Source: Symbiodinium natans
Lineage: Eukaryota; Sar; Dinophyceae; Suessiales; Symbiodiniaceae
Length of the DNA stretch: 64,000 nt
Direction of reading: 5' to 3'
NCBI GenBank assembly: GCA_905221605.1
Contig: CAJNDS010000038.1
Coordinates: 184,129-248,128 of the forward strand
The notes below the pieces were generated by a model, which saw only the letters and a list, made by a program, of their open reading frames with translations, searched no databases and was not told the origin of the DNA. Shown one piece after another: positions 1 to 19,067 of this stretch. The number at the start of each line of letters is the position of its first letter. Position 1 is the stretch's first letter. The translations under genes and the position numbers were made by a program.

Positions 1-2076
1 CACGAGCAGGGCGCTCTGTATTCGGCCCTCAGCTCCTTGCCCTTCTGAGGCCCAGAGCCGGTACATGATCCCTGCCTTGAACTACCTGGTGAGGCACGAC
101 TCCATACGACTCCTTAATTTCAAATGTCGAGGGCCTTGCACTCCATCGTGCATTGCCTGGCACTCAAGGATCTCCATGGGCCCCAACGAGGACGTACCCA
201 CACTCAAGTAGTCTTGCTTGTGAGGGTGATTCAGCAATTCTGTACTAATTCAGTGCTGCCTTTAGTACGCAGGAGACCTTCAAAATCTGCGTTGAGTTCT
301 GGCAGACTTTCAGCAAGGGTCCCAATTGACACGGCAACTCTGACTGGCCGCACTGCGGTACTCAGCAGTTGGCAATAGCTCATACTTCACGCAGCTCGCA
401 GTTCAGGTGCGCGCGTCTACCTGGAGAATCAGGCACCCCAACTTTCCCACATGCAGGCACCGCGGCTTGGCAGCAGGCGCTTTGATTTGCCAAATGTCTG
501 CACATCATTGCAGATCACTTCATACTGATGCCATGCCGAAGCGCCTTATCCGAGGCTGCTGATGGACACCTATCGCGACAACAGCCGATGCCTCGGAGCT
601 CCACATGAGAGCAGGAATCTCCATGCAGCGTACAGTAGGAAAACCGAAGATGACAGAGACCCCTTCTCCAAGGCCAACGCGAGAAGCTGAAGCTTTACGC
701 CCCAGTCTTGGCAGAGGCAGCGGCTCTTGGTGGCTGGACTTTAGCCCCACGCTTTTGACTCTTCCAAGATCGGGGGGGGGAGTTCGAAAGCCACGCCACC
801 TTCATGCACCCTCTCCGCTTTTGCTTAAGCCCTTCGGTTATGTGATTTGTTTTTTGGTACTGTGGGCGGGGGAATATACTCACGTAAACGCAAGCCCTGC
901 TGAAGGTTTGGGAGTCTCTCGGGGTGTAGGGCGGACAAAGACGAGCCATTCCCAGCATGAACATCCGAACGGGGAAACTTTGCTTCCTGAACCCCCTTTC
1001 CTAGCACGGGCCCATGGCTTGGCCGTGAACTGTCAGGTGCGGCAGGTGCTGATCTCCAAAATGGCAAAACCTCCGGAGGCAAATGGCTTCAGCAAGGTTT
1101 AGGGGAAGCTTCACTAGCCATGACCCCCTGGCACGTTGATGCTTGCAGTTTTGCAGCCCCTGGTTTTAGCACGTCAGCTCTCAACCTAAATGATTGACAG
1201 ATGAAAGGTGACCATCAAAGAGAACGAGGAGGGGCATATCGTGCAATAGCTCAGAGCACTTGTGAGCAGGCCCAACATAGGGAGACCTTTCAGTGGCCTC
1301 ACGGACTCTCGGAATTTGCCGGACCTCGTGCTGGAACGATGTGGCCAAGCTGTCCGGCTCTATGAACATGAAGCATATGAAGCCGTAACGCAGATGTAAG
1401 CCCTTGTGCATGCGCATGCTGGAACTTTAAGCCCACTCACATAATTAACAAGAGCGCCAAGAAGAGAGCCATGTGCTCTTGATGGCCGCGGCCCAATTTG
1501 TGGCTGTATAGAGCCTTCACCTCAGCCAAGCTGCGTTGGCCGCATCGTCCAAGGGCAGTTTCAATAGATGGAGCCGTTCTCTCTGCGTGGGTATCCAGGC
1601 TGGACCGGTTCCCGATGTCGCAGCGGTTCCGGCTTTCATGGAGGATGACCTGTCAGGCCATGCCATCCGCTGTAGCGTAGCATGGCTGAAAACATCTGAA
1701 AACCATGCGATGCTGCGCGCCACTTGTGAGGCGTAGTAGCTTTGCCCCGGCGGCAAAGCGCAACTTGACGGCATTGAACCGACCTGCTGCTGCTGCTTGC
1801 GTGAAGGAATGTATGCCTGAAAAAGGGTCTTTAGGAGTTTGCAGAGTGAGTTTGCAGTGAGGCGCAGACAGAACCGGAGGAGGCGAAAGAGGGTGTACCT
1901 GTCAGTGTGTTGACCAGGACTGCATGCGACAAGGGCAGAGATGAGAGGGTGGGAGGCCTGTAGGTCAGACAAGAAGAAGCTTCAACACCAAAAAAGCGCC
2001 AAGGGCTCTGAATCAGTCTTCTTCCTGACGTAAGCTGCGACATGTTCTTTCCAAAGCCTGCACGACAGGATTGCAG
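1..2076. other. 5' flank, no confident gene
   Basis: I see no recognisable protein family here. An open frame at 605-1102 (+) has no motif, a biased composition and competing frames on both strands, so I do not call it. The channel that starts at 2,077 enters directly at its first membrane segment. Its cytoplasmic N-terminal exons must therefore lie in this stretch or left of the window, but I could not identify them. Confidence 0.4.
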
Positions 2077-4193
2077 AAGACAAGACTTTCGAGACTGCAA
2101 CGCTCATTGTGATTGTGATTAATGCCTTGTGGATGTTTGTAGCACCTCGGCGGATGGAGCTTTCAGACTGTCCTTGAGTCGCGTGCTGTGCGGCCGCGCG
2201 TCCTGCATCGTCTTGTTCTCTACACACGCGCTTTCTTTCGCTTGCCACGAGCTCTGATCCGAGGATGTGGAGTGGAATCATGTCAACTTGATGGCGAATG
2301 GAAAGCTGCCCCTGGAGCCCTGGAGCATCGTGCTGGAGAACTGCTTCTGCGGTTGGCCACCACAGAGCTGTTTGCAGATCCGGTTGCAGGTTTCAATCGG
2401 GACTGTCCAACAGCCGTTTCACCTCTCAGGTTATTTCACCATGGAAATAATTATCCGATTCGGTGGAGCTAGAACCTGGTGTTCCTGCTGCAACTTGGCT
2501 GCGCGGTAACCGCGGCAAATTCCGAACGCATTTGGAAACTGATATGCTGGTAACTTCAAACCTGAGGTAGAGATGCTTGGTTTATGTTCGACCTGGCCCT
2601 GGCACTTTGGCACAAAGTTGAAGACGGAGGATTTTCGAATAGATCGGAGGCTTTGTTCATCGTCAGGTGCTTTTGATGGTGCTGGAGACCTGGGTGCTGC
2701 CACTGGTGGAACTTCTCGGCCAAGGCTACGGGGCTCAGAACACATGGGCACACTGCGTGTCGTCGCAACCAGTCCTAGCCCATGTCAGGCGGCCCAGACG
2801 TTTCGGGCCTCTCAAGCCTTCGTCTGCTGCGATTGCTGCGCTTGACACGCCGCTGGGCATGAGAACTCGTGTGGCCGTGTGAGCTGTGTTCCCTGAGACG
2901 CTGAGGCATGGCCCTGCGCTCAGCCCACGATCTCTTTTCACTTGGTCGCCTGCAGATGATTTTTCGTATGCGCAAGCACTGTCTGCAGGTCCGCTTCATG
3001 CGATTCTTCCCAGAGCTCCTGACGCTGGTGCGAGGAATGGCGCGTGCCATGCAGCGGGGTTCCCGGTCGTGGGGGTGAACAAGGCGTACAACAAAACAAT
3101 ACCAAAATGTCATAACGATACATTAGTACAAGCGTACAACAAATGACCGTATTATATAGTACACATGTCATATACCGTACTTACATGATGTTCTAAGAAC
3201 TGGTGCTACAAGTCCAAGAACATCACACAACATTGCGGAGATATAGTAAACACAATATGCCGTAATACAGTAGTACAATGATTTATTGCTGCGGTCATTT
3301 GCTCTGCAAGGTCCGTTGCGTGGGTCTTGCTCTTTCTCCTCATCGTCACGTACATCTTCGTTGCTCGGCATGCCGGATGCGCTGATGAGTACTGCAAAAG
3401 TTAAGCTACTTGTTATTGTTGTTTGCACCATAGCCTTAGCTGTCACGGAGTCATCGCTTGTGCTTCGAGGCTATCGTGTTCACCAGTCAGCTCGGCACTC
3501 CGAACTACCAAAGACCACCAGAGCTCATAGACGCCGAGGATCCACTTGACGCGTGCTTACGCGGCTCTTGACCACAACTGCTTGAGATGAAAAAGGGGAA
3601 ATGCATCCGCATCCCAAGGCCCCGGAGCTTTTCAGCGACATGCCTTCAAGCATGATGTCGCTCTTCACGCATGGGATTCTGGGTGCCTTGGTGAAAAGTG
3701 CGCAGCTGCTGTCGCAGAGTCGAGCGTCGAAGTTGCTGAAGAAGGATCTGATGTTTCTAGTGCACAGGTGACAACTTGCACTTTTTCCTGATCACTTTGC
3801 AGGAGGACAGAGCATGTGGCATGGTCCATCTACCGTGTGAGACTCCTTGCATTCTGTGTAGGAGAGCGTGCTGTTGATGTGGCTGGGCATCGTCTTCCTG
3901 GTGCTGCCCCTTGTCTCAGCCAGAGCCCACTATAAGGTCACGGCCCACTACAAGGTCACGAAGCTCCAACTGTTCCAGTGTCGGTCAATGTATGATGAAA
4001 TGGTATGTAACATACTGTGATACAACGAGATCATAATATACTAGTATACTGGAACAACATATTATGAATAGCGTCATAAGATCATCTTAGTAAACGAGAA
4101 TATTGCAATAATTCTATCAACATAGGAATGCGCTCTGAAGCCTCGAGGTGTGGCATCAGCTTGCTCAACATGCTTATTGGAATTCTTTGCCAG
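2077..4193 (+). CDS. Voltage-gated cation channel, membrane domain exons (S1-S6)
   Basis: Short exons rebuild one six-segment ion-transport domain in the plasma membrane. S1 (2077-2138) reads ATLIVIVINALWMF. 2264-2351 and 2430-2462 give the S1-S2 loop and S2 (YFTMEIIIRFG). 2567-2601 and 2667 to about 2740 give S3 (MFDLAL, then LLMVLETWVLPLVELL). About 2797-2850 is S4 (SLRLLRLLRLTR, arginine every third residue). 2989 to about 3053 is the S4-S5 linker (RFMRFFPELLTLVRGMARAM). 3311 to about 3390 is S5 (AWVLLFLLIVTYIFVA). 3617-3759 is the pore region (FSDMPSSMMSLFTHGILG). 3862 to about 3915 and 4148-4193 are S6 (GISLLNMLIGILCQ). Frames join across these exons with GT or GC donors. No potassium-channel TVGYG filter is visible, which fits a Ca2+/Na+-type channel. 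This single-domain type with an EF-hand tail is common in dinoflagellates. The N-terminus is unresolved. Confidence 0.85.
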
Positions 4194-4418
4194 GTCCGGG
4201 CCCCCAAATCTTCCGCAGCTCAATCATCAGACAGACTCGCTTGCTTCTCGCAGGTAATTGCAGATAGAGCCTTGCCTGCAATGGATGAAAAGAATCACAA
4301 CACGTAGTCCAAAAAATCATATACGCATGCATTTATGTTTACAAATCTTGATGTATAAAGCAGTTGTGTGACGCTTCCTGCACTTTTATGGAAGAACTTA
4401 CTAGTATGGCTTTTCCAG

Positions 4419-7070
4419 TGTCATGCAAAGCCAGGTTCCAAGGAGGAGGAGAAAGCGCAAGAGCAAGCCGATCTGGAGAGACTTCTAAAGGAACTCTTCG
4501 AGGCATCAGAGCGCTTTCATGAGTATCCTTAGTCGAGTGACTATAGTGACTATAGTGATACACCAATATTATACACACTCACTAGTGGTTACGCACTTAT
4601 ATTTGCACTTGTATGGTCTCTAGGCAAGAGTGGCAGGGCTTCGGGCCTCTTGCAGCAATGCACGGCCGTGCACGCATCGTGCCCTCAGCACCCACTTGGA
4701 AGGGATAATCGCAGGATCCATTGGGTTGAGCCTTGTACCAACGACACGGTGGCAACGCAGACCTAAGTACTGTCGGTTGTTGAAGCGCCTCTCGGCCCAT
4801 GGTTCACCGCACTTTTGAGTAGATTACACATAGGTGGTTGTGAAACCGCCTCGGTCTGCAAATGCGGGCCTGTGACGGAGGCCGCCGACCGGAACGGAGA
4901 TGGATCGATCTCGGAACAGGACCTGGGAACCGGGCGCCTGGTGCGATGCTAGGATTCCAGGATATTCCAGGCATCTAGGTATCTAGGCATCTGTGACAGT
5001 TGCATTCGGGTAATCCGAGGTCGAGGTCTCGTTCACTAATCAGATTGCGAAGGTCTCCTTCTTGAGGCTAAGGATTGCAATTGTGCAGTTCATATTATTT
5101 GAGACTTCTATAGGTGCAACAGACACGGGAGGTAATGCGACCGCCACTGACCTTGTTCTTGAGGGTCTTCCCAATCAAGATGAACTTGTTTAATTGGAGT
5201 CGACAGGTGCTTTCCGTTTTGACTTTGGTTTCACAATAAGGCAAATACATGCTGCAATATGCTAGAGATAGTCTAGATTTACGGAGATTACGAGATTAGA
5301 CGAGACCATGACAGCAAAAGCCCCACGGGTACCTGTTCTAAGGGGCCCTATATCAGTCTCGAAGTTCGCGGACGATGTGCAGGAATGGTCACGGGTGGCA
5401 TCAAGTAAGCGCTGCCAGCAGCTGATGAAGAGGCACGTCGGCATGAGGGAACCGATCTCCTGAACTCAGGGGGCTGTGACACTCGTTTCCAAGGTAGAGC
5501 TGTATATTTTGTTTTTCTCGTTTGGTCCCAGACAACCACTCGGTGGACGTGTGGTGATGTGCATGGCTGTGAAGGGCTAGCGGCTAGTCCAGCTGCCTCT
5601 GGTCAGGCTCGAGTTGGACGAGCGCAAGCCCGTGGCCGAGCGCCTGTCGGAGCTCCAGTCGACCATCTTTGGAGGTTGGGGGAGCCACGCGGGCATTTGG
5701 GGCGAAGGGGGGTGGGGGGGCGGGGGGCGAATAGGGTTTAATGCTTTTGCCATGCTTTGTTTCTTTTGTGCCGTTGGTTCCTGCCTGGTTGCCGCGCTTG
5801 CCGGATGACGACGTCCACGACAGCAGGCAGGAACAATAACAACAAGATCGTGTTCCTGTACCAGATCACGTGCTTTTCTTGCCTGTAGAAAGCACTGACA
5901 GGCTTGCTTTTTCGCAGCAGGGTTTCGCATGGGTTTTAGCACCATGGACGTGCAAAGTCAGGGTCTGGAGATCACAAAGCCAAGAGCTTCTGAAATGGCG
6001 ATGTTCTGGGGCCATGATTATTTGGAAATGTTATGTGCGTTGGCTTTTGTCAAGGCTGCGTTGTTTGTTGGTTTTGTGTGTGTTTGTGGGGGGGAAGAAA
6101 AAGGAGCCGCTGTACATGCAGTGAATGCCACAAGATGCTTGGCATGGCAAGAAAAGAGATGCCTCGCAGCAGTGAATATTCACAGGCACGGATATTGTAA
6201 GCAGGGGAGACTCTGGATGCCGCAACCCCAAACATACCACAGCCACAGCTACAACCACAACAACCACATCAGCATCATCATCACCAGCACCACCACAGCA
6301 ATCATCATTATGAAGGCCAGGGACCAGCCAACCAAGAGGCACAGGACGGAACCCCTGTCCAAATCGTTAATACACCTACCAGTAACTATGCCTCACGTAG
6401 CGTTTGCAGCTCTCTGCTGATTGGGCTTCGGATTTATGAGGGCTGTTGAGATGACAGGTTTCATGGCGCGGGCTAGCACATGCCACTGAAGTAGCATGAC
6501 GCAGCGCCTCGCGGAGGCGTGGCGGATGATGAGGATGAGGATGCCCAGGCACCTGCACTGCAATCGAAGAAGCGGTCGGGACAGCCGCTGGTGTTTGACC
6601 AGGTCGAGGAAAGGGAAGCAAAGAAGATCTACCTCGACTTCGACCAGTTTCAAAGCCAGGCGTGGAGAGAGCTGAGATAGTACAGGGGCCTAAGCGGCCC
6701 AGGGGGCCCCCAGTGGCCCAGGCACGCCTAGGAATTCTCTTCTGGAATTCCGCCAGGTGCTGGACTTGCGGAAAGATGCTGAGATCGGCCATTTCGACCT
6801 TCAAAGGCTTGAAATCAAGGTACAGCAAAAGGAGCCAGCGGGAGATGTATAAGGGTGCTTTTTGTGATTTAGAAGCCGCTTCTTTGTTCCGCTTGTTTTG
6901 TTTTTTTTATGTTTCTCCGTCTTTTGCGCTGGACGTCTCCTTGCCAGGACCGCACGCTGAGCTCGCAGCTGGCAGATCTTCAAGCTGATCTTTGCCAACT
7001 CTTGGGTGGCGATCTTCGAAGTTCTCCACTCCCTCCAGGACAGCTGGAAAGTTAGCACAAGCAGAGACCT
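4419..7070 (+). CDS. Voltage-gated channel, cytoplasmic tail exons with EF-hand and coiled coil
   Basis: This continues the channel in phase. Exon 4419-4522 is an acidic helix (EEEKAQEQADLERLLKELFE). An EF-hand loop lies at 4887-4922 (DRNGDGSISEQD) with acidic residues at loop positions 1, 5 and 12. Pieces at about 5350-5460 (ISVSKFADDVQEW) and 5607-5674 (ERKPVAERLSELQSTIFG) follow. 6205 to about 6400 is a Gln/His-rich linker. 6517 to about 6645 (KKIYLDFDQF), 6732-6819 (EFRQVLDLRKDAEIGHFDL) and 6948 to about 7010 (DRTLSSQLADLQADLCQLL) end as a coiled coil. The order of EF-hand, then a (V)LxLR segment, then a coiled coil is usual for dinoflagellate channels and suggests Ca2+ feedback on gating. 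The middle exons are the least certain, and I cannot fix the stop codon. Confidence 0.7.
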
Positions 7071-7157
7071 GAAGAGTTCGTCCATGCTTGACATGCTCCT
7101 GTAGAATTGCTGTAGAATCTGAGGCGTCGGTTTAAGTACCTTACCTAGCACCTGTGC

Positions 7158-8145
7158 AGAGAAGAACATCCAAGTTGATGAGCCCAATTTCCAACGAATC
7201 GTGTGATGTTGTGGTGCCAGGAAAAGGCCCCATGCCAGGGCAGCTCATGGTTGAGGAGTTCGATCAAGAGCATGAGCTGAAGGTGCACGCTTTGAAAATC
7301 TTAGAGATGCTGAAAACAGCCAGTGTGGTAAGAGAACTCGTTGGACAAGGCGCCGCCTCTTCCACAGAGACCGAGCACACCAGCCATGCCTGTCGGAATG
7401 CCATGGTCCTGGGCTCCATGCCACTTGCAGACGACTTGACCTGTGTTGCGCACAATCGATTTCGATGAGAGACTAGGCAGCCGGTGCTTCCGGGTCAACT
7501 GGAAGATGTGGAGGATTGACACCCAGAGCAGCCAGCCAGAAAGTGCAGTCGCAGGATGTTAAGAGGCATAGGATGATACACGGTGACAGGAGCATCGGGC
7601 ACGGCCACAAGATGAATCTCCAACCGGTGCAGCCAGGCGTGACTGGCTGCGCGAGGTGGGACGGGCACTGGGGGGCACACTTCTCTTAGATGCTCTCTCG
7701 GAGATGCTCTTGGACTATCTTTTACTCTTGTGCAGAGGTGCCGACTGAGATTCTCCTCGACGTGTTGCAATCACGAGCCCAGGAGCCCAATGCAAGAATA
7801 GAGCAAAGTGTGAGAAGAACTGGGGAACTGGGGGTCAAATTCTTGTGCTGGCGTGGGTTCGCTGAGGCCAATACCTGGAAGCTCTAGCGTTACTTGAGCG
7901 AGTCGAATCGCTGCGGCCACTGAATCCTTCGGAGATCTTCGAAGGACATGCTTTCATGATGGCCAGAATAATGCAGGCCTAAAAAAGGTAACTGCAATAT
8001 TCTGCAATTCTTGAACTTTGTTCGGCCCCCCAATGGAGTTTCTGAGCTCCGGACGTGGGGCAGCTCTCGAATGAGGAGCACTTGCAGTATAGAATCAGAA
8101 GAAGGGCACTGCGTAAAACGCACCCTTCCGATGGTAAGCAGGCTC
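7158..8145 (+). CDS. Exon-like segments of unknown protein, possibly channel C-terminus
   Basis: Several short in-frame stretches look coding from their acceptors, donors and charged helical composition. They are about 7158-7200 (NIQVDEPNFQRI), 7221-7327 (VEEFDQEHELKVHALKIL, with a canonical GTAAGAG donor), about 7736-7810 (VPTEILLDVLQSRAQEP), about 7890-7980 (RVESLRPLNPSEIFEGHAF) and about 8045-8135 (VGQLSNEEHLQYRIRRRAL). I do not recognise the family. They match no part of exportin-1, which starts just downstream, so they probably belong to the tail of the preceding channel or to a small separate gene. The boundaries are approximate. Confidence 0.4.
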
Positions 8146-8270
8146 CGATGTGAAAAAAAAACCAGGCATGAAACGAAGCGGTAATTGGCTGGGATGGGCT
8201 TTTGGATTGCTAGAGCTGCTAGAGTCTGCTAGAGCCAGATGGCCACCGCATATCTGAAGGTAAGTATCAC

Positions 8271-11200
8271 AGATGAGGTGCGAGTGGAGGAGGAGGACAC
8301 GGACGAGCTTGCTCTGTACAAGATGATGCGTGAAGCCTGCCCCTGAGACGATCGCCTGATAAACTTGCCATTTTATAGGTGCTACGTGCCCACAGGCTTT
8401 GATCTATCTGACCCACCTGGACTCCAGCCACATGGTGCCTTGCCTTTAGATCTTGCGATGGAAGCTCATGGAATCACGAACTTGGAAAGCTGCAAATTGC
8501 GAGTGAGGAACGCATTGTGCTGCAGCGGGTGGAGCAGGCTCTGGCAAAAATTTCTGCATGTGTTTAGGCATGCCTCCCAAGAAGCACAAAGAGTGCCTAG
8601 CACTGTTTCCCCCCCCCCCCCCCCCCCTTGATTCAAGTACTGCACATTACACATCCTGGTCCTGAGCCTGAGCAATGCATGCCAGGAATGCTTGGAGAGG
8701 AAGGACCTGGAAAAGTGGTCCCCTTTGATGTTAAACCGCCTGTGCTATGCCATCGGGTCTATCAGCGGTGCCATGCAGGCATGGGGACACTGCTGTGCTC
8801 CAGATCGACTTCTCTTTAAGGGGCATCACCAACCACCTGCCTTCAGGAACCGGACGAGAGGAAGTTCGTGGTCGCGGCCGCTCGACTGAGTTGCAAGTCT
8901 GCGTAGGGGGGGAAGCACCGTTGTCTTCAGGTGATCAAGGACCTCTTGAACCTTTGTGACATGAAGAAGGGGAAGGCGAGCCATCAAAAGGCAGAATGTC
9001 AGCGCAGAGCAGCTTGCAACGCTTCTCCGCAGGACAACAAAGCAGCAGTGGCCAGCAACATCATGCACCCCTTGCTTGCCCGTGTTCTCTTGCACCGATT
9101 TTTTTGCCGTAGCTTTGCAGCAATTGGGTGGCTCAGGTACGTGGTGGGTCAGTATCCTCGATTCCTGAGGGCCCACTGGAAGTTTCTGAGGACTGCGCCT
9201 TGCTCGCAGCTTGCCATTCCCGAACACAGCATCAAAGCCCTCTCAACTCAGTAGCGCCGATCCCGCAACCCTTCTCTTGCCTTCCCGTTAATTAAGAGGC
9301 TTATAAGTTGTCAGTTGTTGCATATGATGTTAATGTTTAGGAAATCATGTTGCATGGAGAATACTGCAAGGTGGTCTTCAAGCTCTTCGAGTTCATGCAC
9401 GAAACCTTTCCGGGGGTCCAGACATTTGGTCGCAAAATCTCACGCAAGAAAGTGTTTGCTTCCATTGCCGGCCCCTTTTGCCCACTCACACCGCCCGCAT
9501 GAGGCAGATGGCAGTTGACACCTTCCTTCGGATATGCCAGAAGTGCAAGAAGAAGTTCATCGTGCAGCAGGCTGGCTTTGGGAGCCCCTAGGTGCTTAGG
9601 CCAGTACACAGATCAGAATGGGCAGTGTCCTCCGCGTGCTGTGCAACAGAGCAACGAGCCTGCGCCCTTCATCGAGACAATGCCAAGCCACATTGCGCAG
9701 GCGGGTGTGCTTAAGGTGCGTTTTCTTTCAGGAGACCAAAACATGTGCTCTGCAGGACATCTCGGAACTGGAGCCGTTGCAAATCTGCGCTTTGGTCACA
9801 TGGATCGGGAAGGTGAAGAGGGATTGAGGGATTGCCTGGACCATTGACCTGCTGTAAGGCACTTTCTTTGAGGCGGTCGGACACATGATAAGCGCCGCCT
9901 CGTCGGACCAGAAGGCCAGCGGATGCCAGCAGATGCCAGGAGGTGCCTAGCGGAGACTTTCCGACATGGGGCTGCGTAGGTGCGCTTGATCGCCCTCCTC
10001 ATGGGCCCGCTCCCGAACATCCCGAAGTCGATGAGCCTTTCGAAGCCTTTGGAGGGGCAGTGCACCAAAGCCGAGGAATCTTCAACGAGAAGTGGGCCTC
10101 CATTTTGAGAGGACCGGGCTCTAACTGGGTTTCGGGCGCGTCTGAGGGGTCCAAGTCCAGGACTCTCAGCTACAGGGTCTTTGGAAGTCTTCGTGCAGAA
10201 CCAGCAGGCATGGCTGCGTGCGAATCTGCGAGATCTTTGTTCTTGCCTGTCCTCCTGGTCCATGGTTGCACAAAGAGCTCGAAGGTCTTGAGGGAAATCT
10301 CGCTGATTCTGCGCGTGAATGAGCGCATGGTCATCGCCATTGGCACGGCCTGCCACGCACAGCTTGCAGGCCCCCTTAGACCTACACCTGCAGAGACTTC
10401 TGCCAGAGACTTGAACTTGGACAGGTATGTACTGCGATATGTTGAAGATCTACAAGGTCCACTCTTTTGTTTGAGGATGCGCATCATAGCACAACTCTTG
10501 CGTGGAGGTCTGCAGCGACTTCATCTCCCACAGTACGGCGCAGCAGGGTGCACAAGTCATGCACCTGGCAAATGCCCGGAACCTTGGGGGCCGCGAGACA
10601 TCACTTCGCTGCATCATGCTGCATCACCTGCCCGAACAGAGGTGAAGCTGCTGCGGAATGTCAAGCGCTCCGCGGCTGCCAAAGTCATGAGTTTCTAAGG
10701 ATGGGAAGCTTCGAGGAAACGCGAAATCTTCCGAAGAGAGGGAAGTGGGGGGTGGCGGGGGGGGGGGGGGGGGGGCGTGAATGAACGTCCCTTTGAAGCA
10801 GAGCCGAGTCCTAAGTGATCAGAGCCTCAAAAACAAGTCCAAAGCTTGTTTTTACAATGCAAGCTTTTCTCTGCCAGAGGGTAGGCAGTAAGGGGATCAG
10901 CTGGGAGGCGACACCCTGCGGCTGGTCCGATCCTTTGTGGACGCGGCCACACCGCAGGGCGCCGCGGAGGTGCGGCTGACTCCGGCGCAGCGCGCAGCCC
11001 AGAAAGGAAGCAACACGAGATACTGGATTTAAAAAAAATATGTGTGTGTAGATGTATCGATACATACTAGTAGAATTACAAGTCTGCGATGCTGCATGTA
11101 GTATGCTCTCCGCTGGATGGAGCCATGGATTGCACTTATGTGTTAATGCTTGTTTCGGACTACGTGTGTATGAGTGGAAGATGCTCAGAAAGGTGGAGGT

Positions 11201-14200
11201 TTGGTGCTTGGGCTGATGGGGAAGTGGCGGCTCATGTGGACCGGGTGTTGTTGGTGCCCATAACCCACGCCTTCCAGGCGTTCACCGAGCTGAGTTTGGG
11301 GGATTCATTGTTGCGGTTTCTGCTGGGTCGGACTGTTGCGGGTGAGCAGTCGGACCAACTTCTTTCGAGTCGGGTCGTGGTTCCTGAGGCGGTTACACGA
11401 TCATACACCCCGGTGACTCCTTCCTCTTTCGTTTCCTGAGGTTCCGTTGGCTCGATTGATTCCTGAAGGGATGCGTCGCTGCACCCGATCGCAATCTTGC
11501 GGAGAGCATCATAGCATCATAGCTGGCACCTTAGGCTGTGTAGCTCTCCGCCCGTTCGTCCTCTTGTTGTCCTTGTTTTTTTTTTTTTTCTCTCTCTCGC
11601 TCTCTCCTTTTTGGCGGGCCGGGTTGGCTGTTGGCTTCTATTACCCACGGCAGGGGCCGGGGGGGGGGGGGGGTTGAGGTAGTGACGAGTCGGGGAGCAT
11701 ACATGGGGCTTTTGATGCGCCTCCCTCTTGATCCGTTTCGCCATCGCGGCTTCATATGGCTTCATTCCTGAGCCTCCTTGGTTGTCGGAGAACGGAGGGT
11801 CCAGGGTGGACTCGGTTGTGGACTGCTTAAGGTTCAACTTGCTGATTGGGCCATGTGAGCAGGGTCGCGTGGGCTACGGGCAGCTAAAGCAAACATCCGT
11901 TGACTGCCTGGCTGACTGGCTGACCGACTGCACTGTCGAGTATACACTTTTATAAAATACAGAATCTAAGGCATTATCGACGGTACAGAAGAGGAGACAG
12001 AGAACTTAAGAAACGACTGGAGAACCCGAGAGACGAGCATCCTTAAAGACCTCATCTCGTTCACCGAGGATCGCGCAGCGCTTCGTCCCGCCATTGCTGG
12101 AGCACTCGCCAGTTGTGCAGACATGCAGACAGCAGTCGCAAAGCAAATTCCCTGCAACATGCCATCACGTCTGCAGGAGCCGGTTTTAGCAGACTACCGC
12201 AGTAACATGCCCCAGGCAGCTGGTGAAGCTTGAAGCTGTAGTGCAACAGAGACTATGCAGAACATTTCATGAAAACATCTCAAGAAGCAGGCGCGGGATG
12301 CAGAAGTCTTAGCGACTTGGCTGACAATTCCTTTGTAGCGAATTCTGAGAGTGCCTGGAAGGCGACCCAAGCGAAGCTTCTGAATTCCAACTCTTCCCAC
12401 ATGCCCGAATGTCTGCTTAGGACTTGCTTGCTGTCCTGGCGACCAGGATACATGAGTCTTGGCATGGCAATGATCGGGCACGAAAATGGGTCGTACTGGC
12501 TCGTACCTCTCTTCAGCTTCCCTTTTGTTTGCTGAGGAATCCATTTCGCAGGAAGCCATGGGCCCCGAGTGTCATGAGCGCAATGCCATTGCTTCACGCT
12601 GCCTGGGACATGTGGCTACGCCCCAAGCAATCCTGAGGTGGGGAGGATATTCGAGATGGTGCTGGAGTGCACGTATGCGACCCAGCATGCAAGCCAACAA
12701 GCCGACAATGGCTGACAAGGCTGTGCCAGAAGGCCAGACGCGTGTATTCCTTTGGTGCGGTACTACGAAGTCCGTGGAGCCAAATGCAACTATTTTGGCC
12801 TTAGGGGAACCAATCAGGAACAGATCGTGCATCGAGGGCCCCGAGAACCCAAAGTCCGAAACTCTTCCCGTAGCCATTTTGGCTCAAGACAGCTATACAA
12901 TCAATAAACGTTGGGTCGGATTGTCTTTGCAGCGCTCTTCTGCTCTAATGGTGGTTCCGTTCTGCACCCCCTCGACGCAATACGGCACAGATGCCGAGTT
13001 GCGTTCGTTGCCGACGCCCATGCCGCCGCAGTCACAGCAACAATGTGTACTTGCCATGCTTGTGCCGGCGGGCCAGTTCCCCTACGCCGCAACGCAGCCG
13101 TCCATGATGTGCCAGACAGAGAAGTTCGGACCGCACGTGGCGCTTCAACCTCCTGTTCCGCCGGAGATCCTGCACCCGAACATGCAGCTGACCCCAGTCC
13201 TGAAGCCTGTGCACGCTCCCGGCGTCGGCAGCAGCACCTGCAGTGAGGATGAACACGGCGCAGCCCAGAGGGAGCTGCCTTCGCCGCCCGACACCGCCTC
13301 CGAGGCTGATCGCGCTGAGGGCCTGGCCAAGCTCAGCACCAGCGCCGCCCGCCGGCTCCGCCGGAAGCGCGCCTCGCAGAGGGCGCTGGCGAGCCCGGCA
13401 CCGAAACCCTGGGCCAGCAACGGTCCAGTTGCAGTTGGGCGTGTCTGGAATCCATTGACGGAAATCTTTGACTCTGCTGCATACGAAGATCTGCAGCAGC
13501 AACTGCAAGGAAGCCCCGAGCAGGTCTCCTCGGCCTTAACGTTGTTGAAGGACCATTGTGTAGACCATGTTTGGGACCTCTCTTGCCATCCCCTGGGCTG
13601 CCGCCTGATTCAGCTGGCGCTTGAGCGTGCCACTCCTCGTGAGGCTGCCGAGCTGGCGAGGGAACTGCGAGGCCACATTCGCGAGGCGTTGATGTCGCCG
13701 CATGCCAACTACGTGGTACAAAAAGTCGTAACTCAATTGACATGGAACAGCTGCAGCTTCGTGGCAGATGAACTGGAGGGCTTTGCATCGAAGTTTGCTC
13801 GCCACCGATTTGGATGCCGTATTTTCTGCCGCTTGCTTGAGTTCTACGCATCGCAAGACGGCACCCTGCGGTTGGTGGACGAGGTACTTCAGGAAGCAGA
13901 GGATTTGTGCTGTCATCCGTTCGGTCACCACGTTGCCCAGTCCGTACTGGAGCATGGTACCGACTGCCACCGCGATGCCGTGGCAAAGACGATTTGCTCG
14001 AATCCCATGGGCTTCGCTCAGAATCAGAATGCAAGCTACCTCGTGGAGAAGGTCCTGTCTTTCTGCTCGCCGCACTACCAGCGCTCCCTGCTCGCCGAGT
14101 TGACGGAATCTTTGGAAGAATTGGCTCTGTCAAGGTACGGCTGCTATGTCGTCCGGGTCCTGGTGGAACACCCAGATACAGATCGATCCGCGGCAGTGTC

Positions 14201-16995
14201 TCGGCTGTGGAGCTGCATCGGCGAGCTCAGGAGAACGAAGCATGGACAGCACCTGATGACCGATCTGGGCATGAGCATGAATCGCGGCCGACGATGAGCT
14301 CAGATGTCATGTTGCTGTTCCATCCAAGACTGTACATAGACAACGTTGGTGGCGGATCCTTGCAATCCCAAAGCCTGCCCTCCCAATTTCTTGTCGTGGC
14401 GGTTACATTACCCCTAAAGAGCTCCAACCTCCGACTTTGTGGGCACTTGGCCCACCTTTTGCCCGGGATCAGCCTCATCCTTCCAGCTGCCAGTTGGAAC
14501 ACTTGCTTTGCTCCTATGAAGGCTGTATGTAAATATAGCCCAAAGACCAAAGATCCTAAATCCCAGGTGGCAGCAGTCCAGTGTGGCATTGCCCACGCCC
14601 ACATATTCCTCAGCCTGCTGACACGCAGCAGTGCTCCCTGCATGCCGCCATCGCCCCACGCGGAAGGGCTGTTACGGTTGGACCAGCCCTTCGTTGCAAA
14701 GCCGTTGAGCGATTTCAATTGAGTCTTTCGCCCCTGGCACAAAGCCATGGCAGGTTTTCGGGTCTAATGGCAAGGAAGCTGCATGCAGCTTCCTGGCCCC
14801 TGTCGCAGTTGTGAAGGAGACATGGGGCTGGCTTCCCGCCTCTCGAGCACTCGCTACGAGCCCGTGAAGAGCTCGCGGTGCAGGGGGCTTCCCAGTCAAT
14901 GCCAACCAGGGAGTTTGTCAAAGGGAACGGGGTCATTTTGTAAGGTGAGGTGTCATCATTGTCGGTACATTTCTTCGGGCCTTTTTCAAAGGGCCTTTTC
15001 AGAGGTACCACCGTTAGCCCCTGACAAATCCCACAGAAACTATTGTCCCCTCGCTTGTACAGCCAACTGTGGCCCGACCTCCACTTCTCACGTCTTCGAC
15101 GGAGAGAAAGCCTTCTGTCGCGTGAGGTAGCTTATTGCTTGAACGCAATATATTGTATGTGTTCTTAATGTCGAATAGGTACGCTGACCTCTGAACAGGT
15201 AAGACCTGAATTAAGGTGTGACATGATCAAGGGCGACTTCCAAAGTTACCCGGACCACAGGACATCTCTGGGTTGCCGCACTGAAGCGCGTTGTGAACAG
15301 GGTGTCCACTTCTCACCTTCGGCCCTTGTGCTTGTAGCTCTGAGCTAGTTAGCGCCGGGAGGGTGAAGTTCTACGACTTGCTCAAGGCAATCAATGCAAA
15401 TTGCTTCCAGGCCCGGCCTCGCCTTGAAAGAGTTTGGTGCCGTGACGGCAGATGAATGGCAGGCCCTGTTCTATTTGCCAGAGGCCCAACTGATTCTCTT
15501 CGTGGCACGCGCCTCAAACCTCCGGGCAGATGGAACAGCTATAATCACATTGGCAAGCTTGGCCCAGGACTCGTTGATTTGGGCCATGAAGCATGAGCAG
15601 CCACAAGTGGCCGACAGCGGCCTGCAGGTTGAACCGCCTTAACAAGAGCCCTAAACGCCCCACATCCAAGAACCCCGATGGTCTGCAACTGTCCAGCTGC
15701 CAGGTGCTCTCACAGTTTCTGGAGCGCCTTCTGAGTGGCCCAAGTAGTATTTATGCCTTGCGGCCCGGTGTTTGAAAGAACTTTCCACAAGGCGTCGCTA
15801 GAAGCGTCGCAAGAAGCGTCGCTTGTCGCCGAGCTTCAGGTTCCTTTCTTCAAACAGTACTACTTCCTCATCCTTCAAGCCGTCCGGGAGCCTCATCAGT
15901 GAGTGTGTCTCGTCCAACTTGGCGATAGCTGAACAGGTCATTGGTGTTCTTACAGACACCTCCCACAAGAGTGGCTTCAAGCTGCAGCAGCACATTCTGC
16001 TGCTCCTGGGCTCTTGAAGAGAGGGAGGATTTTCTTAAAAAACCCAGCTGCTTCCACGTCTCGGCTGAACCATTGCAAGGCAACTCATCGTTGCCGCTGA
16101 GAACCAAATGCTCAGCGACGCAGCGCCAAAGCAGCGCGTGATGGAGCTGCACGGCTGCATCATTTGCATTTCCTGAGCTCGAGCTTGGAAGAAGAGGCTC
16201 CGAAATTCAAATGGCTCAGCAGCCAGGTTCCTTTTCGAGCTAATTGGCAAGCTGGGGCCCAAGCCGGGAGATTTGGGATCCGGAAGTTGAGTGGGCTCCA
16301 CCACGCTACTTGAGGTCATTCCCAACTCTGAACAAGAGCCAGGTGCATTGCAAGCTACAGGGCAATACAGATACTACAGGCCTGATCACTGTATAGAAAT
16401 CCCAAATTGTGGAGAGGCTGAGATTTTTGTGCTCCACTGCTTCAACAAGTCGCGGCAGCCTGCCGAGCCCGGGCCCTCATATTTTGGATCAAAAACTGAG
16501 AAGTGTCGACTCTTCGAGTCAGCTTGGGCTATGTCTCACAGCGCATGAAACCCGCGGTATTCAATCTCAGTCTTGCGCCTTGGTTCTTGGTTCTTCGGGG
16601 TTTTTGATTCCTTTTGTGTTGGGTGGATCTTGGAGGTTCCAGCAGCACATACGCGACTTCCTCATCCAGCTCAAGGAGAGTTGTTGTTGCTCCCGCACCT
16701 CCTGTATGACCCCTTTTGCGACACTGCGAGCAGATGCCCGTGAAAAGTGTGCACAGTGTACATCGGCCTTCGGAATTCAGAAAGCGCCCTTTTTCCTCCT
16801 GTTACAATTGTGAGGAGTGGGGGAGCCACGAGTCGGCCTTGTACGAGGAGCTGCTCTGTTCGTGAATTCCTCTGCTCACGCAGAAGCTGGGACCAGGGCG
16901 GTGCATGTGTGGAGGCTGAAAGAAAGTCAGCACAAGACGAGCAGCAGCAGCTGGAGCGACAATGGAGGATGCAGGCCTTGCCAAGCTGGACCTAG
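8271..16995 (+). CDS. XPO1: Exportin-1 (CRM1), C-terminal half, about 30 exons
   Basis: Exportin-1 is the Ran-GTP-dependent receptor that carries proteins with leucine-rich export signals through nuclear pores. Exons in order match its HEAT-repeat solenoid: 8271-8334 ([13 protein letters not shown]), 8396-8434 (LIYLTHLD), to 8778 ([12 protein letters not shown]), 8847-8876, 8931-8975 ([15 protein letters not shown]), 9033-9064 ([11 protein letters not shown]), 9137-9194 ([19 protein letters not shown]), 9371-9420 ([10 protein letters not shown]), 9508-9570, 9650-9700, 9732-9786, 9859-9914 (FFEAVGHMI), 10285-10365, 10425 on, 10508-10573, 10642-10674, 10910-10969, about 11150-11290, 15216-15260 ([14 protein letters not shown]), 15362-15410, 15463-15504, 15568-15627 ([20 protein letters not shown]), 15704 on, 15840-15881, 15937 to about 16008 ([10 protein letters not shown]), 16636-16675 ([11 protein letters not shown]) and 16915-16995 with stop TAG. 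Donors are mostly GC. The N-terminal half, with the Ran-binding CRIME region, is not in the window. Confidence 0.88.
8609..8627. repeat. Poly(C) tract
   Basis: A run of 19 C lies in an exportin intron, a few bases upstream of the exon encoding [12 protein letters not shown]. It is simple sequence with no other feature. Confidence 0.9.
10757..10775. repeat. Poly(G) tract
   Basis: A run of about 19 G sits in the exportin intron between exons 10642-10674 and 10910-10969. Homopolymers recur in introns throughout this window. Confidence 0.9.
11576..11674. repeat. T/CT-rich and poly(G) tracts in exportin intron
   Basis: A poly(T) run passes into CT repeats (11,576 to about 11,610), followed by a poly(G) run at about 11,658-11,673. 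Both lie in the long exportin intron that also carries the Pumilio retrogene, upstream of that retrogene. Confidence 0.85.
12868..12888 (+). other. Relic dinoflagellate spliced-leader (DinoSL) sequence
   Basis: Twenty-one consecutive bases starting CCGTAGCC and ending GGCTCAAG match the conserved 22-nt dinoflagellate spliced leader from its second base to its end. Only the degenerate first base (normally T, A or G) differs, being C here. The spliced leader is trans-spliced onto the 5' ends of mature nuclear mRNAs, so a genomic copy directly upstream of an ORF is the accepted mark of an mRNA that was reverse transcribed and reinserted. It ends 59 bases before the Pumilio start codon and so marks the original mRNA 5' end. 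Confidence 0.93.
12948..14297 (+). CDS. Pumilio-repeat RNA-binding protein, intronless retrogene
   Basis: This 449-residue protein is uninterrupted. I chose the ATG at 12,948 because the frame stays open upstream to 12,486, but the spliced-leader relic at 12,868-12,888 shows where the ancestral mRNA began, and this is the first in-frame ATG after it. The N-terminal 160 or so residues are low-complexity (Pro, Gln, Ser). The C-terminal 280 carry about seven Puf-type helical repeats, each with an aromatic or small/Gln core: [76 protein letters not shown] and [11 protein letters not shown]. Puf proteins bind 3' UTRs and repress or localise mRNAs. The gene lies on the same strand inside an exportin intron. 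The ORF is intact, so it may be functional. Confidence 0.9.
   Translation: MVVPFCTPSTQYGTDAELRSLPTPMPPQSQQQCVLAMLVPAGQFPYAATQPSMMCQTEKFGPHVALQPPVPPEILHPNMQLTPVLKPVHAPGVGSSTCSEDEHGAAQRELPSPPDTASEADRAEGLAKLSTSAARRLRRKRASQRALASPAPKPWASNGPVAVGRVWNPLTEIFDSAAYEDLQQQLQGSPEQVSSALTLLKDHCVDHVWDLSCHPLGCRLIQLALERATPREAAELARELRGHIREALMSPHANYVVQKVVTQLTWNSCSFVADELEGFASKFARHRFGCRIFCRLLEFYASQDGTLRLVDEVLQEAEDLCCHPFGHHVAQSVLEHGTDCHRDAVAKTICSNPMGFAQNQNASYLVEKVLSFCSPHYQRSLLAELTESLEELALSRYGCYVVRVLVEHPDTDRSAAVSRLWSCIGELRRTKHGQHLMTDLGMSMNRGRR
14298..15215. other. 3' flank of retrogene within exportin intron
   Basis: This stretch holds the probable former 3' UTR of the Pumilio retrogene and the remainder of the exportin intron. 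I see no poly(A) run and no second gene. The ORF-like stretch in other frames (to about 14,750) is a shadow of biased composition. The next exportin exon starts at 15,216. Confidence 0.5.
15790..15822. repeat. Short tandem repeat, about 11 bp, three copies
   Basis: A GCGTCGC core recurs three times with an AGAA spacer immediately upstream of the exportin exon that begins at 15,840. It is intronic, and its function is unknown. Confidence 0.7.
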
Positions 16996-17399
16996 ACGAA
17001 GATGTAGCAGATTGCTTGAATTTGCTTGAACAATGTCCGTGGCTGGTCCAGCTTCAGAACTTCAGAACTGTGCGAAATCCTGCCCATGTGTGCTGACCGG
17101 TGTTGCTGTGATCTTTGAACCTCTGGCGCAGCAGCCTCAAAAGCGGAAAGCACGGCTAAAGTCCCATTTCGGACCCATTTCGAATATACCTTTGGAGCCT
17201 AGAGATTTGCAGGCCGGGTCTGCCGTTGAGGCATGTCATAAGTTTAGTGGTTGCGCTTCCCAGAGTTAGCGCGTCTGGCAATTCAATGCCATGTTCGATC
17301 CAAATTTTCGGAAGGCCCAGTTTTTGCATGTTTTGATTGTTTTTGAGAGCCATTTGGTTCGAACTTTGGGGGGATCGGCATCAACTCACCGTCAGGGTC
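16996..17399. other. Exportin 3' flank / intergenic spacer
   Basis: About 400 bases separate the exportin stop from the next start codon. An alternative open frame starting at 16,963 ([19 protein letters not shown]) overlaps the exportin terminus and runs to about 17,094. It is acidic and helix-like and could be an alternative C-terminus, but it has no family match. A degenerate spliced-leader-like string lies at about 17,344-17,363. Confidence 0.4.
17344..17363 (+). other. Possible degraded spliced-leader relic
   Basis: The string AGCCATTTGGTTCGAA resembles the 3' part of the dinoflagellate spliced leader, with one T missing, one C-to-T change and one inserted G. It ends 37 bases before the start codon of an intronless ORF, as expected for an old retrogene. 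The match is short and imperfect, so chance remains possible. Confidence 0.35.
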
Positions 17400-18596
17400 A
17401 TGAAGCTCTTGCTGTGGATTGCAGCAGCGTGGTTATCTCTCTCCGCGGCAACCTCTGATGAATGCGAAGGCTCTGAGGATGACAGCTGGGTGGCCTTCAG
17501 CTTGAAACAGCGGAAACACCTGAAGCATCATAATGCCGGCCCTGTCGGGCAAAGTGCAACGTGGTCTTCCTTTTCAGATGTGGCAACAAAGATGACGCAG
17601 CTGCCATGGAAAGATATCACATGGGGTCCGCTTGACAAGTACGGGAAGCCTGAGAACAACTTTGCTTTGGGTGGTTGCATTGTCAATGGCCTCCTATACA
17701 CGATGGCCTTTGCTGACAGTGGTGGACAGAATTGGGAGGACTATGTCCAAGGCATCGGAACTGTTGTGGGTGGACTTGTTGGTTTGGTGCCCGGCGCTGG
17801 CCCCATCCTCAGCATGGTAGTCACCTTCGCCATGTCCCTCTTCCACGATGACTCCGAGTCAGCCTTGACCAGCCTGTACAAGCAGATCATGAGCGAGGTG
17901 CGAGCGATTGTGCGGGCTCAAGAGGTTCAGGATGCAGTGGCTGCAGCCAAGGGGCAGTTGGCCGGCTTCATGCAGATGCTGGCTGGTATGCCTCTGGACT
18001 TCTTGGTGGACGACAAGACCTCGCAAGTTGAGAAATACCAGCATTGGTACAGAGTACTGGAAAGGTACATCAACATCATGGACGCGTCAGAATACAACAT
18101 TTTCGGGAATGAAGCAAATTGTACCCTCGCACTTGCCGTTCCTATGCAACCAAATGACTTGCCAAGCCCAGATTGCTTGGAATTTTGGAAATCTGGCGCC
18201 ATCTTCTTTCAGTTTCAATACGTTCTGATGCATCTCAACATCATGGCCCAGATGGCTGTTTTCGCCACGTTTGAAACTCAAAGAACCACCGTGCTCTCAG
18301 CCCTGCGAGGGAAAGCTGCGACGTATCACAAGCTACTGAACGCCTCTTACCAAGGCTTCGTCCAGGGCATAGATCCACCAATGAAGTGCATCTGGGAGAA
18401 CGGTATAGATAAGAGTAGTGGTAAGCCCATTTGGGTCTTGAAGTACACCAAGTGGGACAACGAAGACGTGTCCTGTGTGACTGGTTGTGTGGCCTCGTTT
18501 CCCTTCAAGTTCCCACAACCGCAGCGTCTGTGCCTCGCACCCGATCCACATTTCCCCAATGCCTGCAGGCAGGCTGACTTCTACTCGATGTATTAG
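17400..18596 (+). CDS. Secreted protein with Cry-like helical domain
   Basis: The ORF encodes 398 residues from the ATG at 17,400 to TAG at 18,594-18,596. I chose this start because it begins a clear signal peptide (MKLLLWIAAAWLSLSAAT), so the product should enter the secretory pathway. Residues of about 110-200 contain a Gly-rich hydrophobic hairpin (VPGAGPILSMVVTFAMSLF) followed by amphipathic helices with a W/L-spaced pattern. This resembles the N-terminal helical pore-forming domain of Bacillus delta-endotoxins and related helical toxins. The similarity is by pattern only, and toxicity is not shown. The ORF is intronless amid intron-rich genes, which suggests a retrogene. The same frame continues past the TAG, so the ancestral product was longer (next entry). 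Confidence 0.7.
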   Translation: MKLLLWIAAAWLSLSAATSDECEGSEDDSWVAFSLKQRKHLKHHNAGPVGQSATWSSFSDVATKMTQLPWKDITWGPLDKYGKPENNFALGGCIVNGLLYTMAFADSGGQNWEDYVQGIGTVVGGLVGLVPGAGPILSMVVTFAMSLFHDDSESALTSLYKQIMSEVRAIVRAQEVQDAVAAAKGQLAGFMQMLAGMPLDFLVDDKTSQVEKYQHWYRVLERYINIMDASEYNIFGNEANCTLALAVPMQPNDLPSPDCLEFWKSGAIFFQFQYVLMHLNIMAQMAVFATFETQRTTVLSALRGKAATYHKLLNASYQGFVQGIDPPMKCIWENGIDKSSGKPIWVLKYTKWDNEDVSCVTGCVASFPFKFPQPQRLCLAPDPHFPNACRQADFYSMY

Positions 18597-19067
18597 ATCA
18601 AGGTTGGCGAGGCCAAGGCAACCTATGAACCCATGCTGGCAAAGCTCCTGAACCTCTCTCTCTCCTCCTATTCTGATGAGGCCAAGGGGATGGTTGATTG
18701 GATCCTGAATGATCCTCCACCGCCAAACAAGACCATCCCCCGCAGCGTGCTTGAGTTCTGCGAGAAGGTTGTCGATGCTCTCGCTGACAAAGCGGTCCAA
18801 ACAGTACCCGACAACGCAAAAAACATCAAGGAGAGTCTCAATGGGGCCTGCCCTGCAGCTTTGAATGTTGCTTCCGCAACACCCACTCGGTGCTCTTGCA
18901 AAACCAACAAGCTTTGTTCTGGGCTGAGCAACACGTTCATTCAAATCCTACCATCTATCCCTGCAGGTCGCTTGTGGGTGTCACTTCTGGGCCCAGGCAG
19001 CTATTTTATGGAGCACTGCAACTCAAGGTGCGATGATCTCCCCATGAGTACTTTGCCAGAACCCTAG
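18597..19067 (+). pseudogene. In-frame continuation of the secreted protein after TAG
   Basis: Immediately after the TAG the same frame stays open for 156 codons to a stop at 19,065-19,067. The composition is clearly protein-like (EAKATYEPMLAKLLNLSLSS; a later Cys-rich stretch with RCSCKTNKLC and HCNSRCDD). The first part is helical and the last part resembles a disulphide-rich C-terminal domain. A single nonsense change in one long ORF of about 555 codons is the simplest reading. Alternatives are stop-codon readthrough, an unrecognised small intron that removes the TAG, or a sequence error. The end of this frame is the likely true end of the ancestral protein. Confidence 0.6.

Follow-up and report, generated by a model that had tools for sequence, protein, structure and literature searches.

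How can an intact, intronless gene come to lie inside an intron of another gene, on the same strand and shortly behind a copy of the dinoflagellate spliced leader (SL), and could it be expressed from such a place? This question is raised by a locus in Symbiodinium natans. It was analysed in a window of 64,000 nucleotides (C38:184129-248128), and genome searches covered the assembly of 759 Mb in 2543 contigs. The initial annotation of the window had described a Pumilio retrogene with a relic SL, nested in an exportin intron, from which trans-splicing could release it as its own mRNA.

An intact PUF reading frame behind a spliced leader, nested in an exportin-1 intron

The sequence CCGTAGCCATTTTGGCTCAAG at positions 12868-12888 of the plus strand is identical to the SL at 21 of 21 bases, with no mismatch. 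It is the sole SL match in the 64 kb window if up to three mismatches are allowed, and no match was obtained in 100 shuffles. The leader consists of 22 bases, the first of which (D) is U, A or G. Since the base preceding 12868 is a C, 21 of the leader's 22 positions are matched. The relic is followed by a 5′-UTR of 59 bases without an upstream ATG (12889-12947) and, starting at the first ATG past the SL, by an intronless coding sequence of 449 codons plus stop (12948-14297). The encoded protein belongs to the PUF family, matching PF00806 with an E-value of 1.1e-26 (92.5 bits, cut-off 26.3). Both the intact Puf-like frame and the exact 21-base SL match 59 bases ahead of it, as initially annotated, were confirmed. 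The GC content at the three codon positions is 0.64/0.48/0.70 in the ORF, compared to 0.51/0.56/0.55 in the same open frame upstream of 12948, a shift that fits a translation start at 12948. A protein search returned record P0001 (603 residues), which is 100% identical and represents the window's own translation; its translation starts ahead of the SL and continues across it. This record refers to a contig of 337,050 bases, whereas C38 has 248,128 bases here.

SL RNA genes also contain the dinoflagellate leader. The match might mark such a gene or have arisen by chance, with the ORF being an ordinary single-exon gene, but we regard this as extremely improbable. The SL is followed by ACAGCT instead of a GT donor, no SL matches are expected by chance, and the intron-bearing relative described below is difficult to reconcile with an ordinary single-exon gene. 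Rfam and tRNA scans of the whole window gave no match. Genome-wide, 205 exact SL copies were found, compared to none for the reversed pattern. We inspected the first 30 of these 205 loci in contig order (L034-L063, the window's own locus included). At 12 of the 30, an ORF with an ATG start and at least 200 residues begins within 300 bases of the SL, and 29 show no GT directly after the SL; these loci therefore resemble relics and not SL RNA genes. The exception, L061, reads GTTTCGGCTCAA and looks like a second decayed relic.

The host gene was traced by tblastn with P0100, the annotated Xpo1 of Symbiodinium necroappetens. Exportin-1 of the window is closest to Symbiodiniaceae proteins, P0100 being the best among the best 120 of 3775 matches. 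Exportin-1 pieces lie in order on the plus strand, beginning 2.7 kb before the window and continuing to about position 16,977, and cover residues 14 to 1056 of the 1073 residues of P0100; from its sequence, the host gene looks complete. The upstream host exon had initially been placed near 11,290, but no exportin match was found between 10,996 and 12,067, and this exon was rejected. That reading overlooked four nearer matched pieces past the one at 10,910-10,996, namely about 12,067-12,102, 12,171-12,218, 12,421-12,459 and 12,635-12,672. The last of these is the exon just 5′ of the copy (12635-12672, in frame, 13 of 13 residues identical to P0100). On the other side, the exon proposed near 15,216 begins exactly there (15216-15261, in frame, 15 residues), and the following exon lies at 15360-15413 (18 of 18 residues). 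The intron between them, 12673-15215 on the plus strand, is 2543 bases long, contains the retrocopy, has the borders GTATGC...AAG/G and interrupts the gene at P0100 residues 837/838. Splicing it out joins ...ECT to CDMIK, matching P0100. Residues 825-837 and 838-852 are consequently encoded by consecutive in-frame exons that flank the copy, which lies in one exportin intron and in the same orientation, as had been claimed. Without the copy, the intron would measure 262 bases.

The window contains no Ns. An assembly search with 12400-12867, in which very common words were skipped, matched only this stretch itself and gave no empty-site paralogue. Judging from the sequence, an assembly join artefact at the copy looks unlikely. 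A second exportin intron of about 7 kb, at 1244-8277, lies around P0100 residues 432-433. Downstream on the same strand, 17337-19067 holds two adjacent long open frames of 419 and 156 codons; the longer contains a signal-peptide-like stretch, and neither gave a Pfam match at E 0.01. Between about 29235 and 43238, several long open frames occur on either strand; they consist of a single repeated unit (QMVLQHLESRGAMWPEMYPADAHDAPLLPRQMRAITG and similar), which indicates a region of tandem repeats and not genes.

The probable intron-bearing parent and the ends of the copied mRNA

Searched against the genome, the 449-residue protein had 24 matches. Apart from the copy itself, the top-scoring relatives are single open frames with 43-49% identity over parts of the protein. 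Nine short matches on contig C2329, with 54-94% identity, are collinear over 20 kb; two of the nine hold one stop, at the place where the match runs into an intron. Splice-aware alignment of 12868-15215 showed that the copy corresponds to a gene at C2329:259249-280896, with 93.7% protein identity over 445 aligned residues. In its coding region this gene has 24 introns with a median length of 289 bases, and all 24 are absent from the copy. All 24 end in AG/G and start with GC, GA or GT, ends and donors that the alignment scoring rewarded. The junction at a 12-base insertion of the copy (13557-13568) was assigned by hand before dN/dS was calculated; the donor there is GC. Three more gaps in the 3′-UTR resemble introns or indels, have unclean ends and are excluded from the 24. 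The initial annotation had called the window gene a retrogene and suggested looking for an intron-containing parent Pumilio gene. The C2329 gene answers to this description and is, on the basis of the alignment, the probable parent of the window copy, which contradicts the view that the ORF is an ordinary single-exon gene.

Other PUF genes of the assembly were observed in different arrangements. Five tandem PUF genes lie 2.8-4.4 kb apart at C1989:548835-562822; their open frames have 311-333 codons, and they are 34-38% identical to the window copy. On contig C835 (L010:1063-2307), a single-frame PUF gene is 49% identical over residues 173-417. A decayed SL-like stretch (L010:961-981) ends 81 bases before its ATG, with TTTAGGG repeats about 30 bases ahead of this stretch.

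The copy, including both UTRs, extends from 12868 to 15148. Its homology to the parent has its left limit at 12876, inside the SL, and its right limit at 15148, where the 3′-UTR of the copied mRNA (14298-15148) ends without an A-tract. The relic SL (12868-12888, plus strand) is therefore composed of two parts: 12868-12875 has no counterpart in the parent, and 12876-12888 equals a 13-base remnant in the parent. The intron-rich parent keeps this remnant, ATTTTGGCTCAAG, at 13 of 13 bases before its ATG (L029:4249-4261, C2329:259249-259261). The bases preceding it are unrelated, and at this place the copy has CCGTAGCC. Since the parent lacks a match to the first eight bases of the SL, the parent's DNA as it is today is not the source of the CCGTAGCC of the copy. 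A full SL in the parent when the copy was made would imply that 6 of the 8 leading bases but none of the 13 later bases have changed since. The UTRs of copy and parent differ at 11-13%, and by a hand estimate the odds of such a pattern in a once-full parental SL are below 1 in 10,000. Most simply, the SL RNA would have been joined by splicing to the AG at the end of the parent's remnant, and the resulting mRNA would then have been copied. We infer that the parental AG used in making this mRNA is homologous to CAAG at 12885-12888, the end of the relic, directly after which copy and parent can be aligned. The parent is intron-rich and nevertheless carries a 13-base relic SL, so its own history is not simple; it may have passed through an mRNA stage itself, or its 5′ end may have been converted by an SL-tagged cDNA.

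No A run of five or more was found in 14298-15215. Between 12790-12890 and 14298-15215 there is no common 8-mer or longer, and at the mapped ends the search for a target-site duplication gave one common 6-mer only, away from both ends. As both an A-tract and a target-site duplication are absent, the insertion was not filed as LINE-type. A candidate for an older second relic 84 bases upstream of the SL was rejected, as it has three mismatches in the 13-base core and does not surpass the best chance matches at other loci.

Taken as a whole, the locus is very probably best explained by retrocopying of an SL-bearing, spliced mRNA of the C2329 PUF gene into the exportin-1 intron. The PUF pre-mRNA would have been trans-spliced and fully cis-spliced to the mature mRNA. 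This mRNA would then have been reverse-transcribed from the leader through the 3′-UTR, and the cDNA would have been inserted in sense orientation into an exportin-1 intron of 262 bases.

A separate observation concerns the surroundings of the 30 inspected SL loci. Telomere-type heptamers (CCCTAAA or TTTAGGG) are concentrated on the upstream side, with 253 upstream and 30 downstream (sum of bins), compared to a background of 36 in 113,000 bases. A heptamer lies within 150 bases of the SL at 10 of 30 loci upstream and 1 of 30 downstream, and anywhere within about 1.5 kb per side at 15 and 5 of 30 loci, respectively. At L034, L048, L050 and L057, the telomere-type repeats end 1-4 bases before the SL. 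None was found at the window's own SL copy. The telomere unit published for dinoflagellates is TTTAGGG (PMC11453091, PMC11508785), and the passages of these sources on the telomere unit make no mention of adjacent SLs. The distribution suggests that mRNA copies may often have been joined to telomeric DNA, for example at capped breaks or chromosome ends.

The PUF protein, probable selection on the copy and its possible expression

By sequence, the solved structures nearest to the copy protein are those of PUMILIO 1. In an AlphaFold2 model based on 32 aligned sequences, 255 of 449 residues reach a pLDDT of at least 90; block means are 85-98 over residues 181-440 and mostly below 50 before residue 130. 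The best structural matches of the model are Pumilio domains (Foldseek, 3bsb_A, E 1e-12, TM 0.71 by target length). Seven contact motifs were read in the repeats, and Pfam reports three significant PF00806 stretches. In sequence family, predicted fold and recognisable repeat motifs, the copy resembles PUF/Pumilio proteins of the PF00806 family and the PUM1 structures. It differs from them in the contact triplets C-R-C, H-H-Q, S-Y-E and C-Y-R, which look unusual by what we take to be the PUF convention for base-contact positions. Copy and parent share 20 of 21 residues at these positions, for which reason the copy protein probably binds an RNA similar to that bound by the parent protein. At the remaining position, the residue of the copy is also that of the database protein P0002.

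The Ka/Ks comparison with the parent, also suggested initially, gave a dN of 0.029-0.030, a dS of 0.12-0.14 and a dN/dS of 0.20-0.25 by four methods, with two columns at the first residues making dN slightly too high. The ORF of the copy contains neither stops nor frameshifts. Two in-frame indels were found in 1350 coding bases, compared to 23 events in 794 aligned bases of the 3′-UTR, where the linear gap cost may overcount. The 3′-UTRs diverge by 0.115 (K80), and in the 5′-UTR 7 of 55 aligned sites differ. Neutral evolution of the copy was simulated with different shares of the 3′-UTR divergence assigned to it. With half of the divergence, a mean of 48.7 replacements and 2.5 stops resulted, and all 4000 runs exceeded 24 replacements. 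Runs without a stop and with at most 24 replacements made up 0.35% at a share of 35% and 12% at a quarter share. The case for selection thus depends on the share of divergence assigned to the copy and weakens at a quarter share. With this dependence, purifying selection on the copy seems likely, and the dN/dS together with the intact frame, set against the neutral expectation, indicates that the copy is probably functional.

P0002 allowed the changes to be polarised. In the protein search it ranks next after P0001 (85%); it is 89.9% identical to the parent, compared to 86.3% to the copy. The proteins of copy and parent differ in 28 columns, of which two, at the first residues, result from the alignment. 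In the remaining 26, P0002 has the parent's residue 18 times, that of the copy 4 times and a residue different from both 4 times. Accordingly, 18 changes fall on the copy, 4 on the parent and 4 are unresolved, and the copy evolves faster. Specific to the copy are the loss of one residue and the gain of four (CVDH) beside the first repeat motif. P0002 was rejected as a sign of expression of the copy, since its identity to the parent (89.9%) exceeds that to the copy (86.3%). A more fitting interpretation is that it represents a relative of the parent gene that predates the copying event, and the protein search therefore says nothing on expression of the copy.

The reverse direction, in which the intronless gene of the window would be the older of the two and the 24 introns would have entered the C2329 gene afterwards, is very improbable. 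Introner elements, which are hypothesised to spread introns into genes, have been reported in related genomes (PMC10522408), and the C2329 gene itself carries an SL remnant. On the other hand, 24 gains within a synonymous divergence of about 0.12-0.14, with none in the copy, are implausible, and P0002 shares 18 sites with the C2329 gene and 4 with the copy. The window copy, moreover, lies nested inside another gene's intron and has mRNA-like ends. Assuming retrocopying from C2329, the copy might also be unexpressed, with its decay yet to come. Most amino-acid changes since the split fell on the copy (18 compared to 4), as would be expected in this case. The dN/dS of 0.20-0.25 and the frame free of stops and frameshifts speak against it, as does the neutral simulation, which rejects it at half of the divergence but not at a quarter; we consider it unlikely.

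It is instead fairly probable that the retrocopy is expressed as an SL-capped mRNA, with the SL added at the relic's own AG. Two candidate trans-splice acceptors are present on the plus strand, GTAG at 12870-12873, within the relic and preceded by CTCTTCCC, and CAAG at the relic's end. Use of CAAG would yield the SL followed by ACAGC, and use of GTAG would yield the SL followed by CCATTTTGGCTCAAG and ACAGC. The latter product would be the published DinoSL-DinoRL tandem (PMC12014239), a link that is our interpretation of the 15-base DinoRL. The leader junction in cDNA can tell which acceptor is used, and the four-residue insertion and one-residue deletion can distinguish the copy from the parent in long-read cDNA.

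As the pre-RNA for this mRNA, the exportin transcript is a reasonable candidate, to which we give somewhat less than an even chance. One pre-mRNA molecule would then yield either exportin or PUF mRNA but not both, unless the intron, once excised, served as the source of the PUF mRNA. A pre-RNA that starts at or near the relic is conceivable, though we lean against it. The copy could be transcribed on its own from a promoter-like TTT(G)/TTTT box in the relic SL, with the host transcript being irrelevant. According to a published proposal, relics that lie 50-100 bases before the start codon, and their TTT(G) motif, are better conserved (PMC6050394, PMC12014239, in the parts concerned with relics). 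In the window, 60-80 bases separate the SL from the ATG, and the SL is intact at 21 of 21 bases while the 5′-UTR differs at 7 of 55 sites, and the parent's remnant keeps 13 of 13 bases of the SL part with the TTTT box. The SL part of the copy, however, would stem from SL RNA, so that its lack of mutations covers only the time since the insertion and only 21 bases. Taken together, we find such an autonomous promoter possible but doubtful.

The initial annotation had suggested that the host transcript would carry a second complete coding sequence, which trans-splicing could release as its own mRNA without a new promoter. The relic SL would in this way turn the host intron into a two-product unit. 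From the sequence, we regard this as a tentative and rather unlikely model. If true, the output of PUF and that of exportin would be linked, each being an alternative product of the same transcript. Use of the terminal AG would renew a single complete SL in each cycle, and such retrogenes would escape surveys for SL-relic tandems.

Relation to known retrogenes and nested genes

DinoSL-tagged retrogenes of dinoflagellates were reportedly described by Slamovits and Keeling in 2008. The window copy shows the features of this class, namely an upstream SL, lost introns and a parent elsewhere in the genome. According to the passages of PMC6050394 on two Symbiodiniaceae genomes, SL-tagged retrogenes make up 22-23% of genes, and parents were paired for just 6.4-9.8% of them. 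As in the retrogenes described in the relevant parts of PMC6050394 and PMC12014239, the relic SL of the copy lies 50-100 bases before the ATG, the parental introns are lost and the ORF is intact. Unlike most of them, the copy is paired with a parent and is nested in a foreign intron in sense orientation. The probable parent, the copy, the host intron, the insertion ends and the divergence are all available within one assembly. The locus therefore lets the question be tested how promoterless mRNA copies survive so often in dinoflagellates.

A genomic SL-like sequence at the exact trans-splice site has been described for the PCP gene of Amphidinium carterae (PMC2488372, in the passages on this gene). 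The copy is similar in that the SL is present in the DNA at the site, putative in the copy, of leader addition. The PCP gene was surveyed in a study of tandem arrays, whereas the window copy is single and nested.

Intron-nested genes account for 8.4% and 6.5% of genes in two Polarella glacialis genomes, with full-length transcript support, and the copy resembles them in lying within an intron of a multi-exon gene. One tool of the Polarella pipeline sought genes only in introns longer than 10,000 bases, a limit that the copy's host intron of 2543 bases falls below. The passages on nesting in this source tie it to neither relic SLs nor orientation, both of which are described for the copy (all PMC7245778, as far as these passages go). 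For annotation, the locus is a warning in two respects: the 2543-base host intron lies under the 10 kb limit, and the P0001 record reads through the SL. Among the titles and abstract openings listed in literature searches on dinoflagellate nested genes, on retrogenes in introns and on nested retrogenes with trans-splicing, no intron-nested SL-tagged retrogene was found described. Each of the two classes, SL-tagged retrogenes and intron-nested genes, is already documented in dinoflagellates. The copy unites both of them with a genomic SL and, in addition, has a mapped probable parent. Their combination is expected from the published frequencies of both, and the copy in the exportin-1 intron therefore belongs to known classes.
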